Shown here: positions 37,812 to 45,100 of the stretch, one piece after another
How positions within the stretch are numbered: the stretch's first letter is position 1
Layout: every line of letters begins with the position of its first letter
Assembly (NCBI GenBank): GCA_019359435.1
Contig: JAHHHI010000070.1
Span: forward strand, 1 to 64,000
Direction: 5' to 3'
Length of the DNA stretch: 64,000 bases
Source of the DNA: Kaiparowitsia implicata GSE-PSE-MK54-09C
GTDB lineage: Bacteria; Cyanobacteriota; Cyanobacteriia; Elainellales; Elainellaceae
The notes under the pieces: generated by a model
Told to the model about the DNA's origin: nothing
Databases searched by the model: none
The model's input: the letters and a program-made list of their open reading frames with translations, nothing else
Made by a program: the position numbers and the translations under genes

Positions 37812-38396
37812 CTATTGCCGAATGTATTGAATAGCCTGAATCAAAGCGTTAATTATCACCTCGTAGCTCTCTTCGGTGGACGGCTCCAAGGTGAGTAATC
37901 CAGCTTGCTCAGTTGCGACAAAACCATAGAAGGCGGCGTTTAACATTCGCATTGCATGAATGGTTTCTGATTCAGTGAAATTGTAGGGTTGAAGCACTCG
38001 CTGATAGAACGTCACGATGCGTTTAACAATGGGCGCACAATCTGGCTCAGTTGGCTTTAGGGGCATTGCCGTCATGACACGATAAAGAGCAGGCTGCGAT
38101 CGCGCAAAATTCCGCGCAGTATGCGCGACCGTTTTCAACAGTGCAGAAGCATCACTGATACCCTCAATGGACTGACAGCACAATGTTAAAAATCGTCGCC
38201 AAATTTCAAGCGCAACTAATCGCCGCAAGGCTGCACCGCTTTCTACATGCTTGTAGATTGACGGCGGTGTAATTCCTAGCTCACGCGCTACGCGATTTAC
38301 ACCTAAAGCTGTCTCGCCTTCTGTTTCTACACAGACGATCGCGGCTTCAATGATGTCGCGTTGAGTCAGCGATTTCTCTTTGATGGGACGACCCAT
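37812..38396 (-). CDS. TetR family transcriptional regulator
   Basis: A 194-residue repressor-type regulator. The N-terminal helix-turn-helix reads LTQRDIIEAAIVCVETEGETALGVNRVARELGITPPSIYKHV (about 8-50), with the usual SIYKHV recognition-helix end. The C-terminal ligand domain is helical and has the TetR_C-like WRRF...YRVMTAMPL pattern. I chose the ATG at 38396 (MGRPIKEKSL). It forms a likely two-gene unit with the hydrolase, which it probably controls. Confidence 0.88.
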   Translation of the reverse strand: MGRPIKEKSLTQRDIIEAAIVCVETEGETALGVNRVARELGITPPSIYKHVESGAALRRLVALEIWRRFLTLCCQSIEGISDASALLKTVAHTARNFARSQPALYRVMTAMPLKPTEPDCAPIVKRIVTFYQRVLQPYNFTESETIHAMRMLNAAFYGFVATEQAGLLTLEPSTEESYEVIINALIQAIQYIRQ

Positions 38397-38768
38397 GGCA
38401 AACCCAGTCAATTAGCTAGCACTATTTACTAAAAGCGAATGGTGTTAGCTTTGTCAAGTATTTCCTTGGCTACTTCCCTGAAGAAGTCTCACTGCCAATC
38501 TTCAAATACTGCCCTCACCGACAAGACTAAGTAGCCCAACTCGTAATTAGAGCGAAATTTTCCGCCCAATGCCCGGATAGGGCAGATTAGGTAGAAATCT
38601 GGCAGCCTAGTACTCCTCTGGGGGGTGATTAGGCAGAAAACTGTCCGCTTAACGCGCTTCGGTGGGTAATTCAGGTGGATTTTTTTTGTATGGTCAGGCG
38701 TCTATCTCTCGTTGCTATGGTCAGAGACAAGCCCAAAAGGGCGATCGCACAGATCATCACCCTTAGCT

Positions 38769-38885
38769 CCAGTTCATCACCGTGTGAGGATCAAGCAACT
38801 TGCTGGGATGCTAGCGCTACCCTTCATCGAAGCCTTGGCAAGGACTCGTTCACCCGTCAATGTGCCGGAGGATTATGCGCTGTAG
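38769..38885 (+). pseudogene. Remnant of a PNPOx-family paralogue
   Basis: In one frame this reads RIKQLAGMLALPFIEALARTR followed by SPVNVPEDYAL and a stop. It aligns with QELAGTLVLALAIAEASAKVR...PIDAPEDYAL of the intact protein at 35651-36316 (about residues 151-180). Only this C-terminal piece remains. There is no start or upstream barrel in the surrounding 350 bases, so it is a decayed paralogue. The rest of the 38397-39008 gap has no supported gene. Confidence 0.6.
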
Positions 38886-39008
38886 TTGTGAACGCTGATG
38901 TTGCCGCAATCGGTTTGCTGCGCTCAGAGGTTTTTGGGCTGCGATCGCGCGAAAGTGAAGGTTTGTGCGGTATTGTGCTGAGAGAATTGGCGTTTTCGGA
39001 GTAGATGC

Positions 39009-39887
39009 ATGGTCAATACGCCCTTGATCCTAGGGTTGCTCGTAGTGGGCTCGATAACCGGTGTGTTGTCGGGACTGCTGGGCATTGGGGGCGGGTTGGT
39101 GATGGTGCCCGTGTTAACCATGCTGGGCATTCCGCTAGTGCAGGCCACGGCGACCAGCTTGGTTGCTGTATTTCTGAGTGCTGTATCGGGCAGCATTCGC
39201 AACTTGCAAGCTGGAGAGTTGAACTGGCGGGTGTCGCTGACACTGGCGCTGTTTGGCATTGTGACGGCGCAACTAGGTGCATGGCTAGGCGATCGCGCCC
39301 CTGATGGTCTATTGTCGCTAGCCTTTGCTGGGCTACTGCTGATCACCATTTACCTGATGGCACTCAAAAAATCTTTGGTGCAAAAGCAAGCACGAGCGCA
39401 GTTGGTGGATGCGGCTAACATCGAGGCTGAGATAGCATCCAAGGTTGCGTTTGAAAACACCCCCACTGCGGCGGCAGAAACGCTGCCCCCATCCCCCCCG
39501 CTCAGTCAGCCTGTTTTTGCGCTGCTGCCTGTGGCGCAGATTGGGCTATTGGCTGGGCTGTTGTCGGGTTTGTTTGGGGTGGGGGGCGGTGTGGTGATGG
39601 TGCCCCTGCAAATGCTGATGCTGGGGGAACGGATTAAATCAGCGGTGCGCACCAGTTTGGGGGCGATTGTGGCGATCGCCATCTCAGCATTGGCCCAACA
39701 TGCATGGAACGGCAATGTGCTCTGGATTCCTGGCATTGCGCTAGGGCTAGGGGGCGTGGTGGGGGCGCAACTGGGCACGCGAATTCTGCCCAAACTGCCC
39801 GACAGCTCGGTCAATACCCTATTCCGAGGCTTCTTGATCGTGTTGTCGATCTATATGGTGCTGCGGGGCATTCGGCTGTTGGGGTAA
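39009..39887 (+). CDS. TauE/SafE family anion exporter
   Basis: A 292-residue membrane protein with eight or nine helices. The two internally repeated family motifs are easy to see: GLLGIGGGLVMVPVL (about 22-36) and GLFGVGGGVVMVPLQ (about 188-202). The family exports sulfite, sulfoacetate and other organosulfur anions, but many members are unassigned. A long hydrophilic loop (about 118-165) separates the halves. The gene starts 8 bases after a weak plus-strand frame and has no clear operon partner. Confidence 0.87.
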   Translation: MVNTPLILGLLVVGSITGVLSGLLGIGGGLVMVPVLTMLGIPLVQATATSLVAVFLSAVSGSIRNLQAGELNWRVSLTLALFGIVTAQLGAWLGDRAPDGLLSLAFAGLLLITIYLMALKKSLVQKQARAQLVDAANIEAEIASKVAFENTPTAAAETLPPSPPLSQPVFALLPVAQIGLLAGLLSGLFGVGGGVVMVPLQMLMLGERIKSAVRTSLGAIVAIAISALAQHAWNGNVLWIPGIALGLGGVVGAQLGTRILPKLPDSSVNTLFRGFLIVLSIYMVLRGIRLLG

Positions 39888-39950
39888 GGCGATCGCCCCA
39901 TCCCATTCCGTTCCAGGTCTCTACGAAATTAGCGATTGGGTGCAGATGCC

Positions 39951-40772
39951 ATGCTCCATCTCAGCGCGTTACTTCAGCTTTTGCCGGGAATGCAGACCCT
40001 GGCACCTCTCCACCAGCAGGCGGGGCAACAGCCGGATAATCTCTGCGGGCCCTATTGGGTTTCGCTGTGGCTGCGATCGCACCAGTACCACATTACGCCG
40101 GAGCAGGTGGCCCAGCAGGCAGGGACGGTGCTCCCCACGGGGCAACCCCAGACGGCATGGGTGCCTCCAGGGGCCACTCCCCGTTGCGACTATAGTCTGC
40201 CGCTGCCCACCACCCCGGATGTCACCACAGGCGGCACGTCTGCCCAGGGGCTGGTGCGAGCCGTGCGGCAACTCACGAGCGGCTCCTATGACTTGGTGCC
40301 CTTGCAATCTCACTGGACGGGCGATCGCCTGCTGTCTCTGCTTCAGCTCTGCGTCGATCATCCTGAGTGGAACACTGCGCCCCTATGCAATGTATCCACG
40401 GCGTATCTCTGGGGCAGCAACCTCTCGCCTGCAGCGGCGATCGCCCACCTCAGCGGCAGCACTATCTCGCCGCCACCTGCCGACTGGGCAGTGGGGCATT
40501 TTCTTACCTTGGCGGGCTGGGTGCAGGGCAGCGCAGCAATGCTGATGTGGGTCTGCGATACCTATCCCCAGTTTGGCTGGCAGGGCTACACGATGCAGCC
40601 TCCCAGTGCGATCGCCGCTGCCCTCAACCGAGAGGCGGGAGCCAGCGGTGGGGTGCTGCTGTTTGTCCATCACCAGCATCGGCAAGCGGTGGCGCAAGCA
40701 GCAGCCCAGTTAGGTTGTGAGGTAGAAGTGTGGGACAACGGCAGCCCCATACCCGCTGATTGGGAAGGGTAG
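39951..40772 (+). CDS. Hypothetical protein with a papain-like NLCGPYW motif
   Basis: A 273-residue soluble protein that I cannot name. Near residue 33 it has QPDNLCGPYWVSLWLRSHQ, which looks like a cysteine-peptidase or peptidase-C39-like catalytic Cys at the start of a helix. The later WAVGHFLTLAGWV has a His in the place expected for a second catalytic residue, followed by AAMLMWVCDTYPQFGW. Similar NLCGP motifs occur in a family I recall as DUF6885. Catalysis is an inference. I chose the ATG at 39951; a TTG lies 15 bases upstream. Confidence 0.55.
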   Translation: MLHLSALLQLLPGMQTLAPLHQQAGQQPDNLCGPYWVSLWLRSHQYHITPEQVAQQAGTVLPTGQPQTAWVPPGATPRCDYSLPLPTTPDVTTGGTSAQGLVRAVRQLTSGSYDLVPLQSHWTGDRLLSLLQLCVDHPEWNTAPLCNVSTAYLWGSNLSPAAAIAHLSGSTISPPPADWAVGHFLTLAGWVQGSAAMLMWVCDTYPQFGWQGYTMQPPSAIAAALNREAGASGGVLLFVHHQHRQAVAQAAAQLGCEVEVWDNGSPIPADWEG

Positions 40773-40878
40773 CCTTCGGTCTGCTAAAGCCTGAGGCGAA
40801 TTTAACGGGCGTTGAGGGGCAGCGCAGTTGCGTAGGCGCTTGCAGCGCAGTGCTGAGAGGGGTGAGAAAGGGCGATCG

Positions 40879-41061
40879 CTATTTCTTGGCGTTATCTCTC
40901 ACGTCTAACGCTTCTAGCACCAAGATTTCAATCAGCACACTAACCGATCGCTTATCTTTCTCTGCGATCACAGCTAAACGCTGTTTGAGTTCTTGAGGCA
41001 GGTATACGGTAACTCTGGCCTTATCTGTAGCCACAAATTTAGAGGCGCTAATAGAAATCAC
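40879..41061 (-). CDS. Ribbon-helix-helix (CopG-like) protein
   Basis: A 60-residue protein with an RHH core: ARVTVYLPQELKQRLAVIAEKDKRSVSVLIEILVLEAL, a beta strand followed by two helices. RHH dimers bind DNA and often act as antitoxins or autoregulators. A perfect 16-bp palindrome lies 29 bases upstream of its start and could be its operator. A small divergent frame follows on the plus strand. No typical toxin gene is next to it. Confidence 0.7.
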   Translation of the reverse strand: MISISASKFVATDKARVTVYLPQELKQRLAVIAEKDKRSVSVLIEILVLEALDVRDNAKK

Positions 41062-41089
41062 GAAAATTCTAGAGCCTCACCGTGTTTTC

Positions 41090-41105
41090 ATGGTAACGTT
41101 ACCAT
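41090..41105. promoter_or_regulatory. Perfect 16-bp palindrome, candidate RHH operator
   Basis: ATGGTAACGTTACCAT lies between the RHH gene (start at 41061) and the divergent small frame at 41139. A perfect even palindrome of this length, in a divergent promoter next to an RHH gene, fits an autoregulatory operator. The second module (41543-41649) lacks this exact sequence but has an ATAGCCGCA/TGCGGCTAT inverted repeat in the same place. Confidence 0.55.
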
Positions 41106-41138
41106 AGCGTCAAAAATTACTACTATGAGGCTTCACAG

Positions 41139-41300
41139 ATGGTCATACTCTCTGATGATGAGGGTGCGTTGTGGCGATCGCCCCTAGCCACGCTGCGCGA
41201 TATCAAAATCCGGCTAGACTCGCGGCTTACCCAACTTCAATCCAATGTGAGTTCAGTCATGTTATTTCTGCCCTGCGTTGCAAGGCTGAAACAACCCTAA
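41139..41300 (+). pseudogene. Small gene cut by a family C repeat (paralogue of 41649-41780)
   Basis: The frame begins MVILSDDEGALWRSPLATL, nearly the same as MVILSDDEVALLRSLLVTL at 41649. The DNA from 41126 is identical to that from 41636 for 38 bases and stays similar for about 88. After about 35 codons the frame runs into the family C repeat at 41244, which supplies the last 18 codons. The original C-terminus, with RLDSRLTQLQ, has therefore been lost. Confidence 0.55.
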
Positions 41301-41356
41301 ACCGCACGGATCGGGACGCAGGCCGTACGGGTTTAGGCCTTTGCCAACGTGACGTT
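41244..41356. repeat. 113-bp repeat, family C copy 2
   Basis: The start AATGTGAGTTCAGTCATG and end AACGTGACGTT match the ends of the 112-bp copy at 28264-28375, as does the inner TGCCCTGCG...GGCTGAAAC segment. The insertion lies between the truncated MVILSDDE frame and the second RHH gene. Its last bases, plus the adjoining A, provide the TAA stop of that RHH gene on the opposite strand. Confidence 0.75.
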
Positions 41357-41543
41357 AATCCAATTCGTCTAATCGGTGTTTTTCGATAATTTCTTGCTGG
41401 CGGGGTTGGAGTAGCCACAGCTCTAAGGCTTCTGCTGCGACTGCACTGATTGACTCCTCCCGAATGGTGGCAATGGTTTTCACCAGCCTATCCAGGTCGG
41501 AATCTAAATAGATTCTGAGTTCTGGTCTTTTTTTAGGACTCAC
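41355..41543 (-). CDS. Second ribbon-helix-helix-like protein
   Basis: A 62-residue protein: PELRIYLDSDLDRLVKTIATIREESISAVAAEALELWLLQ has the strand-helix-helix pattern of RHH DNA-binding proteins. Its sequence differs from the RHH protein at 40879. It ends at the border of the family C repeat, so its natural C-terminus may have been altered. It is divergent to the small gene at 41649, repeating the layout of the first module. Confidence 0.6.
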   Translation of the reverse strand: MSPKKRPELRIYLDSDLDRLVKTIATIREESISAVAAEALELWLLQPRQQEIIEKHRLDELD

Positions 41544-41648
41544 TCGCGATATATAGCCGCAAAAGGACTAATCAGATTTTCTCATTCCTCCTTGCGTATA
41601 TGCGGCTATGCGGATAAACTTGATTTAATCCTAGTTGAGGCTTCACAG

Positions 41649-41780
41649 ATGGTCATACTCTCTGATGATGAGGTTGCGTTGTTGCGATCGCTCCTAGTCA
41701 CGCTGCGCGGCATCAAAGTCCGCGACATTGATAAAGCGTTGGTCATTCTGGCGAAGACTGATAAACGAGCTAGGCCATAA
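41649..41780 (+). CDS. Very small protein (MVILSDDE type)
   Basis: A 43-residue frame: MVILSDDEVALLRSLLVTL, then KVRDIDKALVILAKTDKRA. It looks like two short helices. An upstream TTG at 41592 would add 19 residues with no homologous counterpart in the other copy. The 38-base identity with the copy at 41126, spanning leader and start, supports this ATG. It could be the partner of the divergent RHH protein; the function is unknown. Confidence 0.45.
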   Translation: MVILSDDEVALLRSLLVTLRGIKVRDIDKALVILAKTDKRARP

Positions 41781-42017
41781 CGGTGCTCACTAGCCTGCTC
41801 ACCTAGTCCTAGTAATGGCGGTACATTGCCGACTCTCTGTTGCACGACTGTTACATAACGTTTAATCAACAGAGGGGTCTAACGCTGGAATATCAACGGC
41901 TCTACCCATTCAGATAGGGCTTTCCCATAGCGCGATTCTGCCCTGTGGAAGACGAGAGTGACCCAGGTTTCCGCATACACTACCGGTCTGTCCAATTCCT
42001 TTTTTAAAGAGGTAGCT

Positions 42018-42374
42018 ATGAGAAATCATGTGTTTTATGCGGTTAACGCGCTCAGGGCGATCGCCAAGCGGCTTACCGTGCTGATGGTGAGCGTTGTAAT
42101 GCTGCTAAACCTTACCCAAACCGCAGCGATGGCGGCACCTAGCTCCGACACAGAATCGCAGCTTGAGGTCTCAGACGTCACCCAGCCAATGGATGAGGCG
42201 AGTTATAGCGCCGCCAAAGAAGACCGCCGACAATGGCAACGCAAAGTCTCTGCAATCAAAGAAGAGCAGGACAATGCACCCACCACCTTGGGCGAAAAGC
42301 TCAACGTAGATGAACTCTCAAAGGGATATGACCCTGAGCGAGAAGCAGAGAAGCGTGCTGTTCCCACTCCGTAG
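42018..42374 (+). CDS. Secreted small hydrophilic protein
   Basis: A 118-residue precursor. The N-terminus is basic (RNHVFYAVNALRAIAKR), followed by a hydrophobic core (LTVLMVSVVMLLNL) and the likely signal-peptidase site TAAMAA|PSS near residue 41. The mature part is acidic and helical (EDRRQWQRKVSAIKEEQDN). GAGG lies 6 bases before the ATG at 42018; an upstream start at 41958 is unlikely. A lumenal or periplasmic location is predicted. I do not recognise the family. Confidence 0.65.
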   Translation: MRNHVFYAVNALRAIAKRLTVLMVSVVMLLNLTQTAAMAAPSSDTESQLEVSDVTQPMDEASYSAAKEDRRQWQRKVSAIKEEQDNAPTTLGEKLNVDELSKGYDPEREAEKRAVPTP

Positions 42375-42507
42375 AGGTGGTGTTCAACAATTGCTACCAA
42401 AGAACATCTCTGATCCGCCGTAGGGGTAACGGAGGAAAGCCACAGGGGAAGCACAGGGGCGATCGCTCATTCGCCCCATTTAGAAAGGGTTGTGTCGAGA
42501 CATAGCC

Positions 42508-43740
42508 TTAGTCCGCAGCCTCGGGATTAACCTCTACCGTCATCCCTGCATGGCGTAACCGCTCAGCTAGCACAGACCCCAGCCCAGTGGCTGGGGTTAA
42601 AATGCCTCCTCGCGCTTGACCCCCCGGCAGCGCATCGCCCTGCAAGGCCAAGCCCAAGGCCGACTCACACAAAAACTTGACCGTCGCCCGATTGCCCGGA
42701 TCGCCCTTATCCCGAATCACCCCTCTCACCTTGCGGCCATCGGCAGCGGTGCCCACCAGCTCACAACAGAACCAGCCGTTGTTCATGGTTTGCTCTGAGG
42801 GGCCGTTGCCGGGTTGGGGCAGAAACGATTGCAGGAGCGATCGCACCTGAGGCTGCTGCGCCGCGCCCACAAATAGCCCTAGCCCTGCAGTCACTCCCGT
42901 GGCTTTGGCCCAAGAGAACGGGTCATCAAATTTTAGATATTCCTGATAGGTAAAGTCAGAACCGTAAGGCTCTTGCCATTGGTCATAAAGCGCGGCACTG
43001 CGCCGCACAACGCGGGTGTTGACGGGGCCCATAAAGAACGGCGCGACCCAAGTTTTTAGCTCCGAGTCAAAGGAGGGTGCCTTGGGGTCGCGATTGCGCT
43101 CAGCCTCAGCAGACGAATGCGAAGGGCTGGGGTTGAGCAGAAATGGATCTTGAAACTGCTGGCTTGCCTCAGAATCGTAGAGGTTGAAGGCAGAAGCCAG
43201 CGTTCCCCCATTAAACCCACCCTCTGCTTGAAAATAGGCTGTGACGCGGTTACATGCGACGCCTAGCTCCCGCTGCACATGCTGCACCACCAAATAGGTG
43301 CCGAGATCAGACGGCACCGAATCAAAGCCACAGCTTGGAATAATGCGCGTGCCGTCAGCCGCCGCTTGGGTATGGTAGCGATCGATCAGAGATCTAACCC
43401 AGGGCGTTTCGCCAGTGATGTCAACATAGTGGGTTTTGTGGCGCACACAGGCATCGACGAGGGCATCGCCATAGAGCGCAAAGGGGCCAGCCGTGGTGAG
43501 CAACACGCGCGTTTGAGCGGCGATCGCATCCACTGCCGGTTGATCTTGGCTATCGGCAACCAGCACATCCACCGATACGCCCACCTCATAGCAAACGGCC
43601 TCTAGTTTTTCTCGGTTGCGCCCGGCGATCGCCCACCGCACCTGCTCAGGCCCAACATGGCGGGCAAAGTATTGCACCGTTTGCTTGCCCACAAACCCGC
43701 TGGCACCGTAGAGAACAACATCATAGGCACGCTCAGACAT
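42508..43740 (-). CDS. Saccharopine dehydrogenase-like / trans-acting enoyl reductase family protein
   Basis: A 410-residue protein with a Rossmann start, VVLYGASGFVGKQTVQYFARHV (G-x-S-G-x-x-G, about 7-28). Next come RWAIAGRNREKLEAV, VLLTTAGPFALYGDALVDAC, THYVDITGETPWVR and CGFDSVPSDLGTYLVV. These are shared with saccharopine-dehydrogenase-like proteins and the mycobacterial trans-acting enoyl reductases of complex-lipid synthesis. A lipid or polyketide reductase role is possible but not shown. I chose the ATG at 43740 (MSERAYDVV). Confidence 0.8.
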   Translation of the reverse strand: MSERAYDVVLYGASGFVGKQTVQYFARHVGPEQVRWAIAGRNREKLEAVCYEVGVSVDVLVADSQDQPAVDAIAAQTRVLLTTAGPFALYGDALVDACVRHKTHYVDITGETPWVRSLIDRYHTQAAADGTRIIPSCGFDSVPSDLGTYLVVQHVQRELGVACNRVTAYFQAEGGFNGGTLASAFNLYDSEASQQFQDPFLLNPSPSHSSAEAERNRDPKAPSFDSELKTWVAPFFMGPVNTRVVRRSAALYDQWQEPYGSDFTYQEYLKFDDPFSWAKATGVTAGLGLFVGAAQQPQVRSLLQSFLPQPGNGPSEQTMNNGWFCCELVGTAADGRKVRGVIRDKGDPGNRATVKFLCESALGLALQGDALPGGQARGGILTPATGLGSVLAERLRHAGMTVEVNPEAAD

Positions 43741-44308
43741 GGCAGCGACACTCCTCACAATAGAGCTCCAGAATAACAACGATGATTACAAGACAGCAAA
43801 CGCCATAGTAATGACCGTAATGAAGTTATTGGCAAGTTGTCGTTTGACGAATCAAGCTTATTACATATAGCTCATGCCGTACTTAAATTCCAAAAAAGAC
43901 GATCGTAAACAAACGAGAATAACAGCAATACCCATTCTCTTGCTTAAGTTAATCGACTAGAAAAAATACCAAGGATTTATTTCAATTAATACTTAAATAG
44001 TATAAAAACATCACTTCTTTCAGCGATGAACAGCAAAATTAGCACTAATCTCTTAGCTCATTTAATGTAAAAAGCTGAACTAGATAGGTTCTACACTATC
44101 TTCAGCCAATCTATTATTTAACAGCAATGAAATAGGAGTATTTAGATCATATTTTTGTGGAATCGGGTAAAGCCCCGATTCCACAAAAATATGATTCATC
44201 AGAAGTTATCCATCACTCTACAGGTTCTACTGGGTCGTGTTGTAGACATGTGGATGATAATTCTGAATGCCCTAAGCCTTAAGCAGTTTAGCAACCCTGA
44301 CCACAGGT
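43741..44308. other. A+T-rich gap with a 50-base perfect hairpin at 44146-44195
   Basis: The 568 bases after the reductase are visibly A+T-richer than the rest of the window and hold no supported gene. At 44146-44167 and 44174-44195 lie perfectly complementary 22-base arms (ATCATATTTTTGTGGAATCG... and its complement) around the 6-base loop TAAAGC. The arms end in runs of A and T, so the structure could terminate transcription from either side. It could also be a palindromic transposon remnant. Confidence 0.6.
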
Positions 44309-44530
44309 CTAGAACCGTTCTACTGGAGTCTGGCAGTCGGCAGGATTAACGCCAAACAGACCCGCAATGAATGGGCTAAACGTAATCGGCAAAAAGCCAA
44401 GTCCTGGCAGCACCTGATCGCTGGTACAAACAACCTGGCGATCATTAGCAGCAGTTACTGGGAACGTGACACTGAACACACAAACAGTCGATGCAATCAG
44501 CGAAATAGACACTCTTTGTAAAAGATGCAT
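44309..44530 (-). CDS. Small secreted protein with two Cys
   Basis: A 73-residue precursor starting MHLLQRVSISLIASTVCVFS, with a likely signal-peptidase site at PVTA|AND near residue 27. The mature part of about 46 residues contains two Cys (VVCTSD and ADCQTP) that could pair, and a hydrophobic middle (FLPITFSPFIAGLFG). AAAGAGG lies 6 bases before the ATG, which supports translation. The family is not recognised. Confidence 0.6.
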   Translation of the reverse strand: MHLLQRVSISLIASTVCVFSVTFPVTAANDRQVVCTSDQVLPGLGFLPITFSPFIAGLFGVNPADCQTPVERF

Positions 44531-44865
44531 AGTTGCCTCTTTGTAATGTACACGAACGATACGGCAAAACGCACAACTTGGATGCATCCTATCCGCAGTA
44601 AATTGATGCTGGCTAGTATATGGGTTCAGACTATTGAATTCTTAAATGGGTTAACAGCATTAATCTTTAGCGTTGCTGATTCGCGGGATAAATTATCTTC
44701 ATCCCAAACCCCTGGTTGCCTGACACAAGTCCCGAAAGCCTTGAAAATACGTTGGCGCAGAGCCGCAGGTCATAGCTTACAGATTGGAGCCGAAAGGCTT
44801 AATCCAATAGGCTTTAAGGCAACGCGACTGACGAGAGATCAGGGGTTTCCAGAGATGTGTCAGGC

Positions 44866-45100
44866 ACCCAGCCCAAACCCTTCTCCCCAAGGCGAAGAGC
44901 TTAAAAGGCTGGTTCTCTCGAGTGCATCCCAGTTTTGCAAGTTTGCCCTCATCCCCCAGCCCCTTCTCCCAAAACGGGAGAACGTGGGCCGGATTCAAAG
45001 TCCCGCTCTGAGAGAGGGAGAGGGATTTAGGGTGAGGGCGACAAAAGTGGGAGGCACCTGTTCTCTATCTTCTCGGGAGAGGGCTAGGGCGAGGAATTTG
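44866..45100. repeat. G+C-rich dispersed repeat, family D copy 1
   Basis: Strings such as CCCAAACCCTTCTCCCC, CTCATCCCCCAGCCCCTTCT and TCTGAGAGAGGGAGAGGG form a loose family that recurs at 48638, 53290 and 55424. An open frame runs through it (44525-45160), but its sequence is that of the repeat and is not a gene. The rest of the 44531-45441 gap shows no gene. Confidence 0.6.

Follow-up and report, generated by a model that had tools for sequence, protein, structure and literature searches.

The window, a stretch of 64,000 nucleotides in all, covers the beginning of contig C77; the source genome measures 6.72 Mb and is assembled in 109 contigs. It carries two ribbon-helix-helix (RHH) genes on the minus strand, each divergent to a plus-strand frame that begins with MVILSDDE, and both units fit within 900 bp (Table 1). 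They lie where the original prediction had placed them, with microprotein starts at 41139 and 41649. The frames adjoining the units look ordinary by eye.

Table 1 Features of the two RHH/microprotein units in the window
Feature	Position	Strand	Basis or remark
RHH-A gene (unit 1), cluster 0, CopG/RHH_5 type	40879-41061	-	Pfam RHH_5 E 4.5e-9
Putative RHH-A operator, perfect 16-bp palindrome ATGGTAACGTTACCAT	41090-41105	.	Sequence pattern
87-nt repeat, copy 1 (ribosome site and ATG, reaching codon 25)	41126-41212	+	
Fossil microprotein frame, unit 1	41139-41300	+	Family homology in codons 1-25 only
RHH-B gene (unit 2), cluster 3, GTG start	41355-41543	-	RHH fold and C-terminal tail IIEKHRLDELD
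Putative RHH-B operator, three 8-bp direct repeats TTGCGTAT-ATGCGGCT-ATGCGGAT	41592-41615	+	
87-nt repeat, copy 2	41636-41722	+	
Intact 43-aa microprotein MVILSDDEVALLRSLLVTLRGIKVRDIDKALVILAKTDKRARP, predicted two-helix hairpin, unit 2	41649-41780	+	

The two copies of the direct repeat are 92% identical over 87 nt and the first 38 nt are identical, close to the 38 identical and about 88 similar bases that had been claimed for the leaders. The repeat sets in 13 bases 5' of the ATG and ends within codon 25. Past this codon, the unit 1 frame loses similarity and runs on into unrelated sequence. Unit 2 looks live, whereas unit 1 looks like a fossil. The proposed duplication therefore stands as far as two RHH/MVILSDDE units are concerned, but not as two working modules. 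The microprotein start conserved among relatives is the ATG at 41649, accompanied by GAGG at 41637-41640. The listed unit 2 frame, which opens with a TTG at 41592, was rejected as too long. An alignment of relatives indicates that RHH-A probably starts with the GTG at 41034, which gives a protein of 51 aa.

A third microprotein copy was not found in the source genome at E values up to 10. An Rfam scan of positions 38000-45000 returned no match, promoter and terminator scans performed at about chance level, and the RNA folds of both window leaders were not clearly better than shuffles. Between the units lies an imperfect inverted repeat (CCTAAACCGCACGG...CCGTACGGGTTTAGG, 41296-41337) whose fold is likewise no better than shuffles (41290-41345, z -0.72). 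Octamers of the sequence GCGATCGC, which we take to be HIP1, are frequent at 39500-43500, and one occurs within each microprotein copy.

The microprotein genes carry a clear coding signature. Entropy at codon positions 1, 2 and 3 averages 0.675, 0.385 and 1.441 bits (81 genes), and pN/pS is 0.28 in 3240 gene pairs. An ATG start is present in 82 of 89 aligned hits. GGAG, GAGG or AGGA occurs at most 20 bases upstream in 73 of these hits, as compared with 17 of 266 control stretches. Judged by these features, the frame behaves as translated and is under strong coding constraint. The 87-nt identity is thus a conserved gene start, and not part of an untranslated, longer noncoding repeat, the outcome that the original prediction had named as speaking against it. 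A noncoding or mobile repeat with a chance frame beside RHH genes would suit the patchy, multi-copy occurrence, the 87 nt shared by the window copies and the lineage-specific location, seen from the cassette lying within 1.5 kb of metH in just one of 30 loci checked. We consider this explanation extremely improbable given the third-position variation and the low pN/pS. Furthermore, the bases upstream hold little signal besides the ribosome site and the downstream bases are near random.

As the original prediction had proposed, cyanobacterial genomes were searched for the microprotein and its neighbors were recorded. With tblastn at E values up to 1, 40 of 146 genomes gave a match, the weakest of these being chance matches. 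With a profile at E values up to 1e-4, the microprotein was detected in 36 of 388 genomes from the class; by row count, these are 26 of the 36 genomes listed for the family that includes the source genome, plus 10 others. Both counts include the source genome. The highest copy numbers are 11-12 matches in two genomes, with fragments counted. A scan of the GTDB collection yielded 76 loci titled as cyanobacteria, including Oculatella, Drouetiella, Pegethrix, Elainella and Phormidium tenue. Plasmid records, phage records and viral contigs contained no match to the microprotein. We conclude that the microprotein is a real family that is multi-copy in some filamentous cyanobacteria.

The AlphaFold model of the microprotein is a two-helix hairpin (helices 6-20 and 24-41, pLDDT 87.9, pTM 0.46). 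No convincing relative was found in Pfam, NCBIfam, PHROGs, PADLOC or the PDB, and Foldseek returned no fold neighbor of the hairpin at E values up to 10. Weak matches to Nuc_rec_co-act (best E 0.0013, 13 of 26 members), bS21m (E 0.026) and others (all above 0.05) were taken as chance. In a literature search, no title or opening abstract among the matches listed was recognized as describing the family. A diverged subfamily with a longer loop (MIMLTEAEANEIKALLIQLSREILLQGTYQRKIASCLVILSK) likewise faces RHH genes (L254, L255, L263, L264, L265 and L233). It has four matches in genome G011, one weak match in G033 and one with an internal stop in G002.

Both window regulators belong to the RHH superfamily; as had been claimed, they differ in sequence, and they represent different families. 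RHH-A also matches Pfam RHH_1 (E 1.1e-6), whereas no Pfam model scores above cut-off for RHH-B. The RHH-B profile matches the CopG-family structure 9kkd in the PDB (E 1.8e-6). Its single-chain AF2 model (pLDDT 91.8) has helices at 15-27, 32-44 and 47-55 and no strand. Foldseek places StnY on top and also finds SvtR, Arc, CopG and AtaR, at a probability of 1.00 but a best E of just 0.025. RHH-B also has a weak match to the NCBIfam slr0373 family (E 4.6e-5, 23.4 bits against a cut-off of 100). By eye, 15 of 16 RHH-B cluster representatives end in a tail of the form I-[ED]-[RK]-[HFY]-N-L-[DE] or close to it. RHH-A lacks this tail, so one common contact between RHH and microprotein is not obvious. 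Across the dataset, RHH proteins are mostly about 50-90 aa long. Clustering at 55% identity divided the nearest RHHs from 82 loci into 19 clusters.

Divergent RHH genes accompany nearly every intact microprotein. Scoring of 129 loci, fetched via hits to the microprotein or an RHH, covered 114 microprotein-like stretches. A divergent RHH match accompanies 90 of the 94 that are intact; of the other four, two lie at a contig edge and two have none, under a rule that accepted any divergent RHH match, broken ones included, and a scan that sought divergent RHHs only. The 90 include L063, whose RHH is cut by the contig end, and L080, which retains mere RHH pieces, so that its intact microprotein faces what looks like a broken RHH. 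Seven other low RHH coverages are the effect of one over-long profile. Both intact microproteins that lack an RHH match (L136 and copy two of L064) have core substitutions and look mutated. A divergent RHH is near-obligate for the microprotein and the pairing is well beyond chance, which bears out the idea of a cassette that joins variable DNA-binding proteins to a conserved partner. A toxin-like partner predicts that intact microproteins rarely lack an RHH, but so does a partner that is useless alone.

The 20 partial microprotein stretches comprise 12 with and eight without an RHH. The one in L077 is probably a chance match and that in L254 looks like an intact member of the diverged subfamily. 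Another 22 loci, some of them partial, have an RHH without the 43-aa microprotein; they provide no rate because they were fetched through their match to an RHH query, and the relevant side has under 180 bases left in L252 and L249. Several of these RHHs face other small frames. One such family of about 65 aa, of the RPYIIVAxFPGQLPRAIARLYNQSDADDHV type, is divergent to RHHs in L250, L251 and L259.

The region between the divergent genes changes with the RHH. In a test that included syntenic pairs, the mean local score of control regions was 25.5, 27.5 and 38.0 at RHH identities of 70-80%, 80-90% and above 90%, as compared with a shuffle mean of 7.5. It was 8.0-8.7 at RHH identities below 50%, and for such pairs it stayed at 8.0-9.1 at every microprotein identity. 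Going by these alignment scores, the control region is tied to the RHH and not to the microprotein. Scores above the 99% null level occur in 6.8% of different-RHH pairs, and nine of the 15 best-scoring of these have the leader hairpin CCCAGAA...TCTGGG in both loci. A pattern search found this hairpin between control region and ATG in 15 of 89 loci (e.g., L098, L113, L122 and L124). It is common to units of different RHH clusters and absent from the window.

The candidate operators recur to different degrees. The array of three 8-bp repeats is seen in seven of eight cluster-3 control regions, or four of eight under a strict pattern, and a degenerate pattern of the array occurs once in the source genome (reversed control, 0). 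In cluster 0, the half-site GGTAACG is present in six of 12 control regions and the full GGTAACGTTACC in one of 12. The palindrome 12-mer occurs at one place in the source genome, which says little, since the reversed control was also found once.

The regulator can differ at one and the same genomic site. We picked ten orthologous site groups by hand, based on common flanking genes, which lie on both sides in some groups and on a single side in the rest. In five groups, different RHHs stand next to a retained microprotein and flank (L094/L103/L134, L078/L083/L085, L095/L102, L104/L114/L118 and L082/L126, where L126 has a decayed RHH and a decayed start codon). In the other five the RHH is the same (L076/L116, L079/L109, L091/L112, L123/L130 and L127/L131). 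The first three different-RHH groups were aligned, and similarity picks up again at the microprotein ATG. Microprotein DNA identity is about 0.85-0.89 in eight site-sharing different-RHH pairs (hand mean), as compared with 0.65-0.68 in non-syntenic different-RHH pairs. It is 0.69-0.71 in non-syntenic pairs with the same RHH.

The same numbers bear on whether the microprotein could bind the RHH itself, as an anti-repressor or co-repressor in a closed feedback switch with the RHH-B tail as docking site. The recurrent tail and the near-obligate pairing would fit such a switch. We nevertheless regard it as unlikely: tail-less RHH-A proteins are paired with the same microprotein family, tailed RHHs also face other small frames, and away from shared sites the microprotein hardly follows its RHH.

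Homologous exchange within the microprotein was rejected as the general route of replacement, as codon-block identities show no clear 5'-to-3' gradient. The averages are 0.85, 0.81 and 0.80 for 13 different-RHH pairs, five of which (among L111, L115, L123 and L130) were counted as site-sharing on the basis of a single small downstream gene and probably lack true synteny. They are about 0.88, 0.89 and 0.85 for the eight pairs kept (by hand). The sole mosaic-looking pair is L095/L102, with a converted-looking stretch inside the microprotein. This stretch, and the several paralogues per genome, would be in keeping with an ordinary, often duplicated RHH-regulated small gene whose whole cassette is replaced by paralogues, with no exchange of the regulator as such. 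At the orthologous L095/L102 site, however, the variable C-terminal end KRDRRQSSSGSDRTEKT of the microprotein is common to both loci although their RHHs differ, and we rate whole-cassette replacement as very unlikely.

RHH genes are also stacked. Two or three RHH matches occur in a row in 20 of the 94 intact units. Two of these units have RHH spacings of 323 bp (the window) and 508 bp; another, L080, is the one with the broken RHH, and in L227 the outer match is very short. At two sites, an outer RHH of one genome resembles the inner one of another: L103 (outer) and L134 (inner) share 93% identity over 71 aa, and L082 (outer) and L126 (inner) share 69% over 39 aa. Within genomes, only one of 145 RHH pairs (L073/L081) reaches at least 70% identity, as compared with 5.8 expected (P 0.015), a count on which short-read assemblies bear by possibly merging near-identical copies. 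This non-redundancy depends on the threshold, with P values of 0.18 at 55%, 0.09 at 60%, 0.03 at 65%, about 0.02 at 75-85% and 0.10 at 90%.

Many units contain a further small gene. A protein of about 67 aa (MIVLTDEQ...CPFDSLWSKNLAQEIVRELR) is encoded directly 3' of the 43-aa gene in 38 of the 94 intact units (e.g., L065, L097 and L123), all between L063 and L231 and with a few members truncated or starting further off. The RHH/microprotein pair of the predicted two-gene module is thus real but incomplete as a description. In 16 of the 38 units, the start of the longer gene overlaps the stop of the shorter one by 4 bases. A profile comparison of its N-terminal part with the microprotein gave a probability of 66.7 (E 5.3e-5), as compared with 0.8 for a control with RHH-B. 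The two proteins likely share descent and are probable paralogues. The 67-aa protein also directly follows an RHH without the 43-aa gene in L241, L244 and L246. It has no match in the source genome and none above chance in the window. Another small gene with the sequence FPDVExPxFLYGDRLxWxSDGEV, or its beginning, is found near RHH/microprotein cassettes in L111, L115 and L243.

We propose that the cassette is a two-part, toxin-antitoxin (TA)-like chromosomal element, in which an RHH repressor with its private operator controls a constant two-helix microprotein of 43 aa and the regulator is replaced in place. We put the probability of this reading at roughly 0.55. The RHH dimer would bind its private operator (the three 8-bp repeats in unit 2, the palindrome in unit 1) and hold down both its own gene and the microprotein, which is divergently transcribed from the same control region. 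Once the RHH level falls, the microprotein would be made and act on some target in the cell, with slower growth as the most likely effect. A microprotein that harms or restrains the cell when unchecked would be retained only where an RHH controls it. The RHH-plus-operator half would be replaced repeatedly, with new RHHs entering beside the microprotein and old ones being pushed outward to decay. In the window, RHH-A, the palindrome and the truncated microprotein may represent the older, displaced unit, and the current unit would consist of RHH-B and the intact microprotein. Several observations speak against the TA-like reading: the genes diverge, no toxin family was matched, 43 aa leave little room for an enzyme, RHH-A lacks the RHH-B tail, RHHs that occur without the microprotein are common, the plasmid, phage and viral sequences searched gave no match, and the intact microprotein of L080 faces a seemingly broken RHH. 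The threshold dependence of the non-redundancy, the scarcity of the full palindrome in cluster 0, the 6.8% of different-RHH pairs with high control-region scores and the lack of a general mosaic gradient also weigh against it.

The microprotein could instead be a physiological inhibitor or adaptor like Sda, which is a helical hairpin, and the many RHHs could be independent inputs to one output. The predicted hairpin, the several copies per genome under different RHHs and the purifying selection are all compatible with such a role. The RHH proteins are mostly so small that they offer little room for a sensor domain. Moreover, loss of the RHH need not entail loss of a useful output, but intact copies that lack an RHH match are rare (2/94). 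We find this alternative doubtful, if far from negligible.

Returning to the TA-like cassette, we speculate that it is of a new class, in which repressor-operator specificity, not the effector, is the diversifying part. Each genome could hold mutually insulated copies of one effector, regulators could be replaced in place as new RHH-operator blocks stack beside it, and the effector family, comprising the 43-aa and 67-aa proteins, could be new and have a new mode of action. This extension is tentative, and we would sooner bet against it than on it. Irrespective of that, the analysis adds a microprotein family that lies outside all profile libraries searched, shows clear signs of being translated and has a near-obligate regulator. 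Examples of regulator replacement in place around a constant gene make it directly testable how small RHH modules acquire distinct DNA specificities and maintain them.

The findings suggest that the cassette is so far uncharacterized, and it may work like a TA pair, a possibility that the original prediction had raised in the form of an antitoxin/partner or addiction module. Type II TA genes are bicistronic, with antitoxin and toxin co-transcribed. Those with RHH antitoxins (ParD, CopASO, AtaR, VapB and RelB types) resemble the cassette in three respects. First, a small RHH regulator is tied to a small partner gene. Second, operator-like repeats, here putative, lie in a shared control region. 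Third, the distribution is patchy and multi-copy, with exchange of partners between families. In contrast, the cassette genes are divergent, both in the window and in all 90 intact units that have an RHH match, the partner of 43 aa matched no toxin family in Pfam, NCBIfam, PHROGs or PADLOC, and searches of plasmid and phage collections gave no match. By the features tested, the cassette does not qualify as a type II TA system, since its genes do not form one operon and no toxin family was matched.

The omega-epsilon-zeta system has a separate small RHH regulator and two further genes, similar to the cassette units that carry the second microprotein of about 67 aa. Here, however, the two small proteins look like mutual paralogues and no zeta-like protein was matched. 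In phage immunity regions, repressor and operator are swapped as one block. The cassette is similar in that both would be exchanged jointly while the controlled gene stays, but it consists of two or three small chromosomal genes.

Exchange of partners between families is also a feature of TA networks, as described in the part of Makarova 2009 (PMC2701414) available to us. In the combinatorial NetFlax/Panacea network, a promiscuous antitoxin domain meets many toxins (PMC10440598, in the portion available to us), and the modular combination of a regulator or antitoxin with a partner is comparable to the cassette. The arrangement here is the reverse, with one constant microprotein family, many diverged RHHs and exchange at fixed genomic sites. 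As far as those portions of the two papers go, the cassette is distinct from the promiscuity that they describe in combining a constant microprotein with in-place exchange of its regulator.
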